Below are positions 10,548 to 35,376 of a stretch of 36,437 nucleotides of DNA, piece after piece. The notes under the pieces were generated by a model. It worked only from the letters and a program-made list of their open reading frames with translations, was not told the origin of the DNA and did no database searches. Position 1 is the first letter of the stretch. Each line of letters begins with the position of its first letter. A program made the position numbers and the translations under genes. Origin of the DNA: a virus; IMG/VR virus record IMGVR_UViG_3300010160_000118, positions 1 to 36,437 of that record; one strand, written 5' to 3'.

Positions 10548-11483
10548 TCAAGGACTTTTAGTTACCGACACCTGAACCACCTTATAATCCCCGTTTCTTA
10601 GAATATGAGCTTCGGCTGTAGTGCCTGGCTTTAACGAACGTACAACCCTTACAATATCGCGTTGGGATGTAATGGCCACATTAGCCAGAACAAGGACAAT
10701 GTCGCCCGTATTGAGCCCACAGGAGCGCACAGTGCGTGTTATTTGAAGTCCTTGGTCACATCCCGGAAGGGCGATACCCGTAGATACCGTTTTGCCCAAC
10801 ACCCCCAAATATCCATCCTTTGTGGTTTTTGATTTCATGTCTTCCAAAAACTTGACCACGTCTACCGCCGAGACGCAGTACGCAAACTCCTGGGATGACT
10901 CCCTTGGTTGATCCGTCAAAGAGATTAAACCCAAAACCATGGCGACAACCTCTCCCTTATGGTTGACCAATGGACCGCCCGAATTGCCCTTGCAAACCAA
11001 AGCATCTGTATATAAGAATCTTTCTCCTTTCTCCGTGCCGGCGGCTGAAACAATACCTGTCGATAAGGTGCGGGAAAATCCCAAAGAGTTGCCGATGGCG
11101 TAAACAGGGGTGCCCGGGGCTGGTGGAAATTGTGTATTGAAAACTGCCGGCGGCAGGTGGATAGGCTTGTCAAAGTCGTTTTTAACTTTAATAAAGGCTA
11201 GGTCCAGCAGGGTGTCTTTATAGACCACATCACCGTCAAACACCACCGAATCGTCTCCGTCGTCGCAAATGATGCTTGCCAAGTCGGATTTATCCACTAC
11301 GTGCGCCGCCGTAATAACTCCTCCCTCAACCGCTATTCCCGTCCCCCGCGAAGATTTCTCCGGAGAGATTACTTGAATCCGTACTACAGAAGGAAGTATT
11401 TGATTCTCGGTTCGCGCATGCGACGCAAGAAAGACCGACAAAAGTCCCAGCACCTGAATCCAACGATTGTTAAGAATATGCAT
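10548..11483 (-). CDS. Secreted HtrA/DegP-like serine protease with PDZ domain (311 aa)
   Basis: ATG 11483 has a strong site (AGGAGGAG, 4 nt spacing). Residues 1-23 are a signal peptide with a hydrophobic core (VLGLLSVFLASHA). The trypsin-like fold carries all three catalytic residues: His61 in VITAAHVV, Asp94 in LLDLAFIKV and Ser168 in CKGNSGGPLV. Residues about 224-311 form a PDZ-like domain (YLGVLG, then LNTGDIVLVLANVAITSQRD). HtrA proteases act in the periplasm on misfolded or specific envelope proteins. The protein is shorter than DegP and has one PDZ, as in DegS. It is last in the minus-strand module, after a secreted 3D-domain protein and a small membrane protein. Phage copies appear rare. 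Confidence 0.88.
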   Translation of the reverse strand: MHILNNRWIQVLGLLSVFLASHARTENQILPSVVRIQVISPEKSSRGTGIAVEGGVITAAHVVDKSDLASIICDDGDDSVVFDGDVVYKDTLLDLAFIKVKNDFDKPIHLPPAVFNTQFPPAPGTPVYAIGNSLGFSRTLSTGIVSAAGTEKGERFLYTDALVCKGNSGGPLVNHKGEVVAMVLGLISLTDQPRESSQEFAYCVSAVDVVKFLEDMKSKTTKDGYLGVLGKTVSTGIALPGCDQGLQITRTVRSCGLNTGDIVLVLANVAITSQRDIVRVVRSLKPGTTAEAHILRNGDYKVVQVSVTKSP

Positions 11484-27108: not shown

Positions 27109-27136
27109 TTGACACGTTCTAACCGGTTGATACATT
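27109..27136 (+). promoter_or_regulatory. Sigma70-like promoter ahead of the capsid gene
   Basis: TTGACA (27109-27114) and TACATT (27131-27136) are spaced 16 nt apart. It follows the scaffold gene stop by 15 nt and would start an RNA of about 220 nt before the capsid start codon. It would give extra capsid transcript independent of the terminase promoter. Confidence 0.6.
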
Positions 27137-27142
27137 TAGCTC

Positions 27143-27286
27143 GTTTGAGTCAGGTATAAAGATTGAGACCCTACTCGAACAAGACCTATAAAGATTGAGA
27201 TGGTCTAGCAGAAATCGGGCATTAAAAGCTCTGGGATGCCGCCAGGGAAAAGTTTTGAGAACATAGTAAAACTGGATAGCCCCGAT
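27143..27286 (+). ncRNA. Structured 5' leader of the capsid gene
   Basis: The 227-nt leader holds two hairpins displaying the same 14-nt loop, TATAAAGATTGAGA (27155-27168 and 27187-27200), on different stems (GTTTGAGT with ACTCGAAC; AGACC with GGTCT). A larger domain follows: an outer stem ATCGGG (27214-27219) with CCCGAT (27281-27286), enclosing hairpins CTCTGG/CCAGGG (27229-27247) and AGTTTT/AAAACT (27251-27273). The loop of the first hairpin (ATGCC, 27236-27240) can pair with GGCAT (27218-27222), a possible pseudoknot. No ORF explains this DNA. It is likely a regulatory or stabilising RNA for capsid expression. Confidence 0.65.
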
Positions 27287-27363
27287 AGGGACTAGCAGGA
27301 TTATTATAAATCACAACCGACCCTTTGCGCGAGTGAGGGGAAGGATGAAAGGAAATTACTAAT

Positions 27364-28758
27364 ATGGCTACTACTTATAGCATTCAACAGCTTCTTGTTA
27401 AAGAAGCGGGTCGTATCGGACCGGAGATTTATCGCCGGACGATCGATACCTCAGCTTGGCTCAAACTAACTAAACAGGAACAATTCCCTGAGGAGATGGG
27501 CGATGTAATCAGTTCGGTTACATTCGAACGTTTCTACCCCTCCAGCTCACTTGCTTCTGCCGCTGATACCGCGGTTGGCTACGCAGTCAACGATATCAAG
27601 TCAGACGCAGGAACTAACTGGCGGATCCTCGGATCAAATCAAAACACCCAGAACTACCAAACCTTCAACCCTTTCACCCAGGCCGTCAGCACGGCTGGTG
27701 ACGGATTGCCGGTGGCGTCTAGCTCTTCCTCTGGTAACGTTCTGCCCAAACCACTCACAGGAGTTACCTTTGGTCAGAAACTCCGCCAGTATTCGCTAGA
27801 ATGGGCCTCGGTTGATTCCCCCGATATCGCTCTCGAAGACTTGCGCTTTGCCGTTAAACGCAAAGAGCAGCTCTCGAACATCATGGATGTCTTGACTGAA
27901 TCGACCTCCTTGGTTTGGCAGGATCGTTACCGGACTCTATACACCAAGACGGTTGCACTTGAAGGAAACCTTGTTTACCCTAGCACCACTGCTAACGGTA
28001 TCGTTGCCTCTACTTCAGCTAGCTCTGGTGACGCAGCAGTTGTTTATAACGCTGTGACTGGTGGAGTCGGTACTGCTGCCTCTGGCACAATCACTGCCGC
28101 CAACTTGCCTAATAGCCAGTTGACGCAGGGAATCCTGAAGCGGCTCTATATGAAGCTCATTCGTGACGGCGCAGGATCTAAGGCCATGGGCCGTGAAAAC
28201 GGAGCACCCGTGTTCATGTTGATCTGCGGTGCCGAAACAAGTGAAAGCTTGATTCGCTTGAATGCGGATATCCGTCAGGATTTCCGGTATGCCAAGCCGA
28301 ATGAATTGCTCACGCCCCTTGGCATCGAGCGTTCTTACGGTGGCTTCTATCACTCAATTGATCCGTATCCCCCGCGGTTTGCCGTGTTTGATACGACTAA
28401 TGATAACCTTATCCGCGTGTATCCTTTCCGCAAGGAAACGACCACTAAGGGTACGGCTTATAATATCAACCCCGCGTACGAGACGGCTTCCTACGAAATT
28501 AGCTATATCTTCCATCAAGAAGTAATGCGTTCTGTAGTCCCCAGCCCAATCAACACGAACAACAAAATGGGTTTCAACCCCCAGAACTACCGTGGTGAGT
28601 TCAAGTGGGTTAACATCCTCGATCGTGAAAATAATCCGGACGGCAATGTCGGATATTTTCGCGGAGTTTGTGCGAGCGGTGCTCGTCCCGTGTTCCCGCA
28701 GTATGGCTACGTCATCCTGCATAACCGGGCCAGCATTAGCCTTGATTACGTTAGCTAA
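27364..28758 (+). CDS. Major capsid protein (464 aa)
   Basis: Starts at ATG 27364 after GAAAGGAAAT. It lies directly after the scaffold-like gene, with its own promoter and structured leader. The protein begins MATTYSIQQLLVKEAGRIGP and contains FPEEMGDVISSVTFERFYPS, a typical spine-helix and E-loop style opening of HK97-fold capsids of podovirus-like phages. The composition is Ser/Thr/Asn-rich in the middle, as expected of a shell protein. No N-terminal cleavage domain is apparent. Identification rests on position, length and general pattern. Confidence 0.85.
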   Translation: MATTYSIQQLLVKEAGRIGPEIYRRTIDTSAWLKLTKQEQFPEEMGDVISSVTFERFYPSSSLASAADTAVGYAVNDIKSDAGTNWRILGSNQNTQNYQTFNPFTQAVSTAGDGLPVASSSSSGNVLPKPLTGVTFGQKLRQYSLEWASVDSPDIALEDLRFAVKRKEQLSNIMDVLTESTSLVWQDRYRTLYTKTVALEGNLVYPSTTANGIVASTSASSGDAAVVYNAVTGGVGTAASGTITAANLPNSQLTQGILKRLYMKLIRDGAGSKAMGRENGAPVFMLICGAETSESLIRLNADIRQDFRYAKPNELLTPLGIERSYGGFYHSIDPYPPRFAVFDTTNDNLIRVYPFRKETTTKGTAYNINPAYETASYEISYIFHQEVMRSVVPSPINTNNKMGFNPQNYRGEFKWVNILDRENNPDGNVGYFRGVCASGARPVFPQYGYVILHNRASISLDYVS

Positions 28759-28780: not shown

Positions 28781-29071
28781 ATGAGTTTTCCCCTTCAAAC
28801 GGCTACGCAAGACAATGTGCTTGCGGCTCAGGTTCGTGGTGTGTTGAATAAAGGCCCAGAGTGGACATCCACTTTGACCGGTTCTTCAGCCACAACGAGC
28901 CTGACGGCAATTGCCGACTCAACAGGCGGTACGGCTACCAACGGCATTGCTGCAATCACTGCCGGCGCTACTTACGCGCAAGCAGACCTGACCGCAGTTA
29001 AAAATGGTTTGGCTTCTGTTACCGCAAAGGTTAATACTATTTTAACCTTGTTGCGTAATCTGAATGCCTAA
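28781..29071 (+). CDS. Small virion-like protein with shared N-terminal motif (96 aa)
   Basis: It has a strong ribosome binding site (AAAGGAG) 22 nt after the capsid stop. Residues 3-22 (FPLQTATQDNVLAAQVRGVL) match the N-termini of the 9023 and 29872 proteins. The middle is Ala/Thr/Gly-rich and the end is a helix with heptad Leu/Val spacing (LASVTAKVNTILTLLRNLNA), possibly a trimeric coil. It may be a head decoration protein or short fibre. It is directly followed by a terminator, so it should be made at capsid-like levels. Confidence 0.7.
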   Translation: MSFPLQTATQDNVLAAQVRGVLNKGPEWTSTLTGSSATTSLTAIADSTGGTATNGIAAITAGATYAQADLTAVKNGLASVTAKVNTILTLLRNLNA

Positions 29072-29083
29072 ATAACTAATTGG

Positions 29084-29110
29084 TCCCCCGGGGTTCTATC
29101 CCCCGGGGGA
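29084..29110 (+). terminator. Rho-independent terminator after the capsid unit
   Basis: TCCCCCGGGG (29084-29093) and CCCCGGGGGA (29101-29110) form a perfect 10-bp stem with a 7-nt loop, followed by a T-containing run (TCATACTCTTTC). It lies 12 nt after the stop of the 28781 gene and would reduce transcription of the downstream genes. Confidence 0.75.
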
Positions 29111-29138
29111 TCATACTCTTTCAAGAAAGACAACTCTT

Positions 29139-33030: not shown

Positions 33031-33428
33031 GTATTAAACTAGGAGCAATAGGAGTTCAGAAGATTTCCACTAAGTTGATGGAACAGGGTTTCCTCGTAAA
33101 TCTACCTGTTTACGATGACGGGTATGATTTAGTTACAGACTGGAAGGGCAATCTGACGCGGGTACAAGTTAAAACTACTATTGGAAATGAAGACAGTCGA
33201 CGTAGGAAATTAAAGTTTTTTGCCATAAGAGGTCCAGGCTTTGGCCACATGGAAAAAAGATTATACACTAAGGTAGATTGCGATGTTTTTATATTTTACC
33301 ACACATCTTTAGACGCGGTATTTGTGATCCCCAGGGAAAAGTTACCTCGCACAAAATCCATTTACCTTGAGCTTAATTGTAAATGGCGCGATAATTGGAA
33401 TGTACTAAAAGGAGTTTTGAATAGATGA
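33027..33428 (+). CDS. PD-(D/E)XK endonuclease, I-Ssp6803I/homing-like (133 aa)
   Basis: ATG 33027 overlaps the endolysin stop and has AAGGAG 6 nt upstream. The catalytic signature is DDGYDLVTDWKGNLTRVQVK (Asp, then QVK), after an N-terminal helix beginning SIKLGAIGVQKIS (GaiGE-like, with Gln in place of Glu). It ends with a VIPREKLP beta segment. These small nucleases are often free-standing homing enzymes or Hjc-like resolvases. Inserted in the late operon between endolysin and fibre genes, it looks mobile. The missing first Glu could reduce activity. Confidence 0.72.
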   Translation: MSIKLGAIGVQKISTKLMEQGFLVNLPVYDDGYDLVTDWKGNLTRVQVKTTIGNEDSRRRKLKFFAIRGPGFGHMEKRLYTKVDCDVFIFYHTSLDAVFVIPREKLPRTKSIYLELNCKWRDNWNVLKGVLNR

Positions 33429-34027
33429 GCAGCACACAATTGACTGGGAAGCAGAGAAATGTTTTGGCCAACACGGCTCCCGTTGTCTCCACTACTGGAG
33501 GAACGGGAGGTACGCAAGGCCCTCAGGGACCACAAGGCCCTCAGGGACCGCAAGGCCCACAAGGCCCCCAAGGCAATCCGGGAGTTTATATCGGTATTTT
33601 TAACGCTGTGTACCAAACTGGAATTAATTTGTTAGGGCCTACCTCACAAAGAACATTAGTTTACACTGTTCCCAGTTCAAAACGATTTATTATTCAAGAT
33701 TTTACTATTTTATTGACTTCTGTTTCCGGTTCAGAAAAAACAACTTTACCAACAGTCCGACTCTATAAAAGTTCTTCTTCTTCTTTATCCGGTTCAATTT
33801 ACCAGTTGACAAATAATTTTGATTTTAATGGTGTTACCACACCGGCTATTTTTGCAGCTGGGTACGTTGCCCGAGTTAATGTAAATTCCACAACCACAAT
33901 TAGGCCAACTGCCGCAAATGGCGAAAGTATTTATTTTGGAATAGATACGGCCTTTGACGGGGCCGGGCTAACAACCCCCTATACTACCATGCAAGCTACT
34001 TGTATTGTGGCTGGATACGAGTTGTAG
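33425..34027 (+). CDS. Collagen-like tail fibre protein (200 aa)
   Basis: AAAGGAG lies 10 nt before ATG 33425, which overlaps the nuclease stop. Residues 31-53 are collagen triplets, mainly Gly-Pro-Gln (GTQGPQGPQGPQGPQGPQG, then PQGNPG), encoded by a recent-looking GGCCCTCAGGGACC(A/G)CAA repeat. A beta-sandwich C-terminal domain of about 145 residues follows (RFIIQDFTILLTSVSGSEKT). Such proteins form trimeric rods with receptor-binding tips. Confidence 0.8.
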   Translation: MSSTQLTGKQRNVLANTAPVVSTTGGTGGTQGPQGPQGPQGPQGPQGPQGNPGVYIGIFNAVYQTGINLLGPTSQRTLVYTVPSSKRFIIQDFTILLTSVSGSEKTTLPTVRLYKSSSSSLSGSIYQLTNNFDFNGVTTPAIFAAGYVARVNVNSTTTIRPTAANGESIYFGIDTAFDGAGLTTPYTTMQATCIVAGYEL

Positions 34028-34467: not shown

Positions 34468-35376
34468 ATGAGCTGCGATTGTAACACACTTGTAATTGGA
34501 GAATCCGGACCGCAAGGGCCCCAAGGATTTAATGGTTTTGATGGGACAAATGGTACTAATGGCATAAATGCTTTTAGCACATTGACTGCTACTTTTACTC
34601 AACCAAATGTTGCCCCAGCCGCGGGAAACACAGTTACAATTTCTGTTTCTTCAACGAATTGGATTGCTGTTGGCCAATCTCTTTTTATTGAGCAAGCCGG
34701 TTATTATACTGTAACAGCGGTTAACTCCAGCACTTCTTTGACTGTTAGCTTCCAAGTTACAGCTGGAATTTCAGCTGGAGCTTCTGTTTCCTCTGGTAGA
34801 AAAGTTTCTCCCGGCGGTCCGATTGGTTCAAATGCTTCCAATAGTTTTAGTTCAGTTATTGTAAATTCAGCTTTAGCCTCGAATCCATCCGCATTTCAAG
34901 TCTACGGATCTTCTGGATTTCCTTTGCTTCTGGTTAACGCTACACTCAACAAAGTTGGGCTTAACGTAACTCCAATCTCGACATCAAGTACTTTTACTGT
35001 TGGCGGATCTTTTGAATCTTCCGGGAATATTATTAGTTCCGGCGTGGTACAGGCCCCAAGATTCAGATTATCTTCAGCTGGCCCCGAATTATCCAAAGTT
35101 CTTTCTTACTCCACAACCCTTACCGTAACTCTAGCCGGAACTGTAGGAGCTGTTACTAGAGTCGATGCGACGGTAGCTGGTACAGCTGTAGGCGATATCG
35201 CTCAAATTGCCTATACATCCGATCCAGGCGGTACTTTTGAAATTGATGTTGTAGCCACTTGCATGGTTACAGCAACCAATACTGTATCTGTTACGTTTAC
35301 GAATTCTTCAACTAATGCGTATTCCGCTGTAAGTATTCCTTTAAAGTTTATCGTCTCAACATATAGCGCAGTGTAA
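34468..35376 (+). CDS. Collagen-like modular tail fibre protein (302 aa)
   Basis: AGGAGG lies 6 nt before ATG 34468. The N-terminus has Cys residues (MSCDCNTLVIGESGPQGPQG) and a collagen-like Gly-X-Y stretch continuing through GFNGFDGTNGTNG. A 'GQSLFIEQAGYYTVTAVNS' module, frequent in phage fibres, is next. After a Ser/Asn-rich linker comes a C-terminal beta domain (AVGDIAQIAYTSDPGG, ATNTVSVTFTNSSTNAYS) like that of the 34072 product. It is likely a trimeric fibre. Confidence 0.78.
   Translation: MSCDCNTLVIGESGPQGPQGFNGFDGTNGTNGINAFSTLTATFTQPNVAPAAGNTVTISVSSTNWIAVGQSLFIEQAGYYTVTAVNSSTSLTVSFQVTAGISAGASVSSGRKVSPGGPIGSNASNSFSSVIVNSALASNPSAFQVYGSSGFPLLLVNATLNKVGLNVTPISTSSTFTVGGSFESSGNIISSGVVQAPRFRLSSAGPELSKVLSYSTTLTVTLAGTVGAVTRVDATVAGTAVGDIAQIAYTSDPGGTFEIDVVATCMVTATNTVSVTFTNSSTNAYSAVSIPLKFIVSTYSAV

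Follow-up and report, generated by a model that had tools for sequence, protein, structure and literature searches.

The capsid gene of an uncultivated virus of bacteria was found to be preceded by a structured leader RNA of ~220 nt, in which compensatory base changes preserve a common fold and which stays strictly with the capsid gene. From the aligned relatives, we regard the fold, the covariation within it, and the strict linkage of the leader to the capsid gene as close to certain. Because matching mutations keep the fold in dozens of related viruses, the leader can be considered a genuine control element.

The window, i.e., the whole stretch of DNA analysed, is an IMG/VR virus record of 36,437 bases. 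It carries, in this order, genes for the large terminase, a 777-aa protein, a 405-aa protein, the capsid protein, and a small ORF; the 777- and 405-aa proteins, at the portal and scaffold positions, matched no family. The capsid ATG lies at 27364, and its product of 464 aa had no match in PHROGs or Pfam. An AlphaFold model of this product was consulted, built from 37 aligned relatives with a mean pLDDT of 63.9; an earlier model from 14 sequences was discarded, as its quality was too low. The model matched the N4 capsid with a Foldseek E-value of 1.8e-7 and a VIA-align Z of 13.8 (rmsd 7.9 over 272 residues), and phage Moo19 with a VIA-align Z of 13.6 (rmsd 5.2 over 256 residues). The structure matches were mostly phage capsids, with the N4 family on top, and the gene after the leader was taken, on the strength of this model, to encode an HK97-fold, N4-gp56-like major capsid protein. 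Elsewhere in the window, collagen-like GPQGPQ repeats were seen in two late ORFs (33425-34027 and 34468-35376, plus strand), and an ORF at 10548-11483 on the minus strand resembled a trypsin/HtrA-type serine protease when read by eye. The features of the capsid region are as follows.

27109-27136, plus strand: sigma70-type promoter, TTGACA-N16-TACATT with TG before the -10 element, matching at 10/12 positions and conserved in relatives
27143-27363, plus strand: structured capsid leader RNA, from alignment and pair counts, with a predicted start 7 nt downstream of the -10 element
27143-27180, plus strand: hairpin P1, carrying the first loop copy (27155-27168), 97.1% paired, 4 two-sided pairs
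27182-27206, plus strand: hairpin P2, carrying the second loop copy (27187-27200), 100% paired, 3 two-sided pairs
27218-27247, plus strand: H-type pseudoknot, invariant in group A, its S2 covarying in group B
27218-27222 with 27236-27240, plus strand: pseudoknot stem S1, GGCAT with ATGCC
27223-27228, plus strand: pseudoknot loop UAAAAG
27229-27234 with 27242-27247, plus strand: pseudoknot stem S2, CTCTGG with CCAGGG
27252-27317, plus strand: outer stem around a long two-part hairpin (27263-27307), 10 two-sided pairs in helices 5-7
27321-27340, plus strand: last hairpin before the ribosome-binding site (helix 8), 100% paired with one-sided changes only
27347-27353, plus strand: Shine-Dalgarno site GAAAGGA, read from the sequence
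27364-28758, plus strand: major capsid protein gene (HK97 fold, N4-gp56-like), as taken from the AlphaFold model and structure matches
28781-29071, plus strand: 96-aa ORF within the capsid unit, without a family match
29081-29113, plus strand: terminator-like hairpin closing the capsid unit; a strong hairpin follows the capsid in most relatives

Relatives were collected by a capsid protein search of viral contigs (32 loci), a search with an alignment of the relatives (61 loci), the exact twin-loop pattern (18 contigs), and a pseudoknot pattern (45 matches in IMG/VR). In group A, the capsid is 73-94% identical and the leader carries the twin hairpins; in group B, the capsid is 43-46% identical by the same measure, the twin hairpins are absent, and the pseudoknot is common to both. 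The leader type tracks the capsid type, with the 5' domain swapped between the clades. Within group A, identity was 85-91% over most of the noncoding leader (-250 to -101), whereas the adjoining portion of the upstream coding gene mostly reached 60-76%. No relative was found by DNA and protein searches of annotated phage records. Bacterial and archaeal genomes gave no exact pseudoknot match and one distant capsid, L150 (38% identical), on contig VFKX01000071.1, which belongs to a MAG binned as Candidatus Falkowbacteria. This contig may be a misbinned phage contig, so that it gives at most a tentative host link. IMG/VR contigs often ended in or just past the leader (L035, L036, L038, L040, L044, L045, L050, L055, and L062); the assemblies were probably broken there by a stretch near-identical between strains.

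The promoter and the capsid start lie, as the sequence-only reading had stated, just upstream and just downstream of the leader, and the promoter sequence occurs once in the window. That reading had set the leader at 27137-27363; its position before the capsid gene stood, while the RNA probably starts at about 27143 rather than at 27137, a start placed from the position of the -10 element alone. The base so predicted is the first G of P1 in 17/17 group A members. The mean unpaired probability over 17 group A leaders, computed without pseudoknots, was 0.07 for the first 6 nt and 0.64 for the Shine-Dalgarno site, the latter moderately above the leader mean of 0.43. In group C (L113-L119 and L136), the Shine-Dalgarno sequence was seen to be part of a short stem-loop, AUCC-UAGGA-GGAU, in which a U-A/C-G change is compensatory. 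The hairpin after the capsid gene or small ORF of most relatives was mostly of -21 to -30 kcal/mol, and a top of the GGGG-UUCUAU-CCCC type is conserved in most related loci. The arrangement is best explained by a self-contained capsid transcription unit composed of the promoter, RNA leader, capsid gene, small ORF, and terminator hairpin.

The region 27137-27363 folds at -61 kcal/mol (z -2.9), better than 200/200 shuffles, and the outer stem and two hairpins previously described for the downstream domain are present in the fold. In 19 full group A leaders, 98.6% of the instances of the 56 proposed pairs were kept, and 17 pairs showed two-sided compensatory changes vs 9.9 in shuffles, 4 of them in P1, 3 in P2, and 10 in the downstream domain, where the outer stem itself is invariant and the changes fall in the helices that it encloses. 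The covariation score was reached by 0/500 shuffles, and sliding the partners abolished the covariation. In 15 group B leaders, 12 two-sided pairs were counted vs 6.6 in shuffles, again with 0/500 shuffles reaching the score; one control on these pair counts (a) leaves the relatedness of the sequences in, which a further control (b) and the use of two independent clades mitigate. Covariation among homologous leaders had been named as a check on the fold, and strong compensatory change was the outcome in groups A and B. A candidate hairpin within the opening codons of the capsid gene, where a G-C/C-G exchange was apparent, was rejected, as several members break the pairing.

The 14-nt sequence TATAAAGATTGAGA occurs exactly twice, at 27155-27168 and 27187-27200, with starts 32 nt apart, and sits in the loops of two hairpins as had been claimed. 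With up to two mismatches, the window holds 4 matches vs 0.35 expected, a number reached by 0/100 shuffles. The stems that present the loops are unlike, AGG/CCU on GUUUGAG/CUCGAAC in one and AGACC/GGUCU in the other, and this holds across relatives as well. The identity of the loops was true of the window and of 15/27 distinct twin units, whereas in the other units the two loops show one to three differences, all of them transitions. The loop consensus across relatives is UAUAAARAYUGARA, with variation confined to those three positions and TATAAA invariant in both copies; the spacing is 32 nt in 26 of the 27 units and 33 nt in one. The twin hairpins are a version of the 5' domain peculiar to one clade, group A. 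The suggestion that a complementary RNA might be the partner of the loop found no backing, as the complement of the 14-mer was absent, at up to 1 mismatch, from 10 genome records. Further pattern matches to the loop hairpin elsewhere were set aside; none of them was a capsid leader, and they had the appearance of coding sequence.

Downstream of the twin hairpins, the pairing of GGCAT with ATGCC, offered earlier as a possible pseudoknot, proved real, since its second stem covaries in the distant clade. Group A is uninformative on this point because the pseudoknot never varies there. In group B, S2 shows two-sided change at three pairs (CUCUGG/CCAGGG, CUCCGG/CCGGGG, CUUCGG/CCGAGG, and CUCUGC/GCAGGG), and S1 is invariant in both groups. 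The group B 5' domain is a covarying pseudoknot of its own with a U-A/G-C exchange. In these leaders (e.g., L023:905-970), the second pseudoknot, GKCG/CGMC with CGCGG/CCGCG, was seen inside a variable outer stem, so that two pseudoknots stand in tandem. The pseudoknot is more widely conserved than the twin hairpins. Group C and L150 have a matching element order, with S1 as GAGC/GCUC and an extra hairpin inserted after the A-rich loop, which is suggestive of a pseudoknot extending to these leaders. The pseudoknot descriptor was satisfied by approximately 1-5% of shuffles of the leaders that satisfy it, and it misses L086, though the pairs of L086 are kept in alignment A3. Pseudoknots drawn by eye in the deepest groups (L117 and L120-L131) failed the descriptor test, and a match in L139 was unconvincing. 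A likeness of the GGCAUGG clade to the HDV ribozyme was likewise dropped, as the strand order differs from the HDV fold as generally known.

The tie to the capsid gene was examined by searching 23 records with a covariance model built on the group A leader. One significant copy per record was found in 20/23 records, always at the capsid gene, with E-values no worse than 1e-71 for group A and between 1e-7 and 1e-10 for group B; two remaining matches had E-values of 0.2 or more. Among the 45 pseudoknot matches in IMG/VR, the next feature was a capsid start in 36 and the contig end in 9. Nine group B genomes carry an unrelated gene upstream instead of the usual 400-aa gene, and promoter, leader, and capsid gene remain together in them. 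With its compensated noncoding fold and fixed place before one gene, the leader fits the general kind of a structured cis-acting mRNA leader.

As for its function, we tentatively favor, short of an even chance, a leader that stabilizes the capsid message while the ribosome site stays open. RNA polymerase would start on the first base pair of P1, so that a helix would enclose the 5' end from the outset. Decay that depends on the 5' end, whether by RNase E/RppH or, in other hosts, by RNase J, would then be hindered by the twin hairpins and the H-type pseudoknot, and the Shine-Dalgarno site past the last hairpin would remain open. The protein in greatest demand by the virus would in this way be made from a message that lasts long and is translated well. 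Tertiary contacts of the invariant loops and pseudoknot, or a protein bound to them, would probably reinforce the protection. This stabilizing, translation-supporting role is preferred because the message, with its closing hairpin, would be self-contained and end-protected; 5' stem-loops are known to stabilize bacterial mRNAs (PMC7509114), and the swapping of the 5' domain between clades suits a general protective role.

A 14-nt loop used twice and an almost invariant 31-nt pseudoknot would be superfluous for a plain stabilizer and point to specific recognition; from their invariance, a phage protein or RNA polymerase may also read the RNA. A translational operator, whose loops and pseudoknot bind the capsid or another phage protein and match capsid synthesis to assembly, is thus conceivable, if on the unlikely side. 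The tandem, near-identical loops on unlike stems, varying at three transition positions only, and the pseudoknot invariant in group A would suit such binding, as would the leader that stays with the capsid gene beside an unrelated upstream gene in nine group B genomes and goes with the capsid type; T4 gp32 offers a precedent in acting on its own leader, where the pseudoknot lies 67 nt ahead of the gene 32 start (PMC3014915). Yet the end of the pseudoknot lies ~100 nt ahead of the Shine-Dalgarno site, no repressing alternative fold came up in a cursory look at group A, and linked inheritance explains the co-segregation equally well. A cis antiterminator like put, with the first ~65 nt binding the polymerase and allowing read-through of the 29081-29113 hairpin into later genes, seems improbable. 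It would account for two stem-loops that form as the polymerase leaves the promoter, in position and size as in HK022 putL (PMC9378689), for the conserved terminator-like hairpin downstream, and for TATAAAGAT in loop 1, which resembles a -10-like pause signal, also a putL feature. Group B, however, combines an equivalent unit and hairpin with a 5' domain that is very different; this reading also leaves the pseudoknot and 3' domain unexplained, and the 29081-29113 hairpin may merely end the capsid unit.

Two further readings have very little in their favor. A compact, nearly invariant pseudoknot with an A-rich loop amid variable stems recalls a riboswitch, in which the pseudoknot or the twin loops bind a small molecule reporting the cell state, but the 45 pseudoknot matches lay before a capsid gene or at a contig end and never at a metabolic gene, no Rfam riboswitch matched, and an alternative terminator or anti-Shine-Dalgarno stem was not seen in groups A and B. 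It is just as improbable that the repeats act in the DNA, as transcription factor or sigma sites or -10-like elements, and fold incidentally. The 32-bp spacing, about three helical turns and fixed in 26/27 units, and the TATAAA constant in both copies accord with such sites, whereas the stems, both hairpins included, change by compensation in RNA-pairing partners, which a site in duplex DNA does not need. Beyond the stabilizing role preferred here, we consider it a rather speculative prospect that the leader represents a new class of capsid-linked cis-regulatory RNA in many uncultivated phages, with a protein reading the pseudoknot core and exchangeable 5' domains to set capsid dosage as particles assemble.

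Each phage particle takes hundreds of capsid subunits, whose production must keep pace with that of scaffold and portal, and there is hardly any record of a dsDNA phage capsid gene being controlled through its leader RNA. Since the covarying RNA accompanies a single gene in clades whose capsids are only ~45% identical, it is a ready test system, and the leader might give a transferable element for stable, high expression.

At the gathering thresholds of Rfam release 15, no family matched the window or 14 related loci, and matches at E ≤ 10 were far under threshold and on the opposite strand; no capsid leader RNA of this kind was found in the open-access literature. Together with the covariation and the fixed place before the capsid gene, this upheld the proposal of a new phage regulatory RNA with a conserved structure. 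Among known systems, the T4/T2 gene 32 leader likewise places an H-type pseudoknot upstream of the coding region for an abundant phage protein, and its mRNA is unusually stable (PMC3014915). In the same review, from 2010, the T4 gene 32 pseudoknot was described as perhaps the sole viral one in translational autoregulation (PMC3014915). In contrast, the leader in the window precedes a capsid gene and has, in addition, the twin hairpins next to the promoter and another folded domain; the T4 operator is single-stranded and A+U-rich from the pseudoknot to the ribosome site, where our leader has ~90 nt of conserved stems, and no homology between the two leaders was found. HK022 putL comprises two stem-loops in ~70 nt just downstream of its promoter (PMC9378689), a layout shared by P1 and P2 (27143-27206), adjacent stem-loops that together take up ~65-70 nt immediately behind a sigma70-type promoter. 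Unlike putRNA, the leader adds a conserved pseudoknot and a 3' domain and has identical large loops, and it lies in a late capsid unit, whereas put acts on early genes. With ompA-type 5' stem-loop stabilizers, it would share a 5' end in a stem, if the start predicted from the -10 element is right, and an open ribosome site downstream, but it is far larger, has invariant loops and a pseudoknot, and belongs to a phage gene. The pseudoknot of E. coli rpsO (S15) involves the ribosome site, whereas that of the window lies ~100 nt upstream of it; the two are alike in that the rpsO translational operator also contains a pseudoknot (mentioned in PMC3014915). Taken together, the structured cis-acting mRNA leader is a known kind of element, of which the family, host gene, and architecture described here appear to be new.
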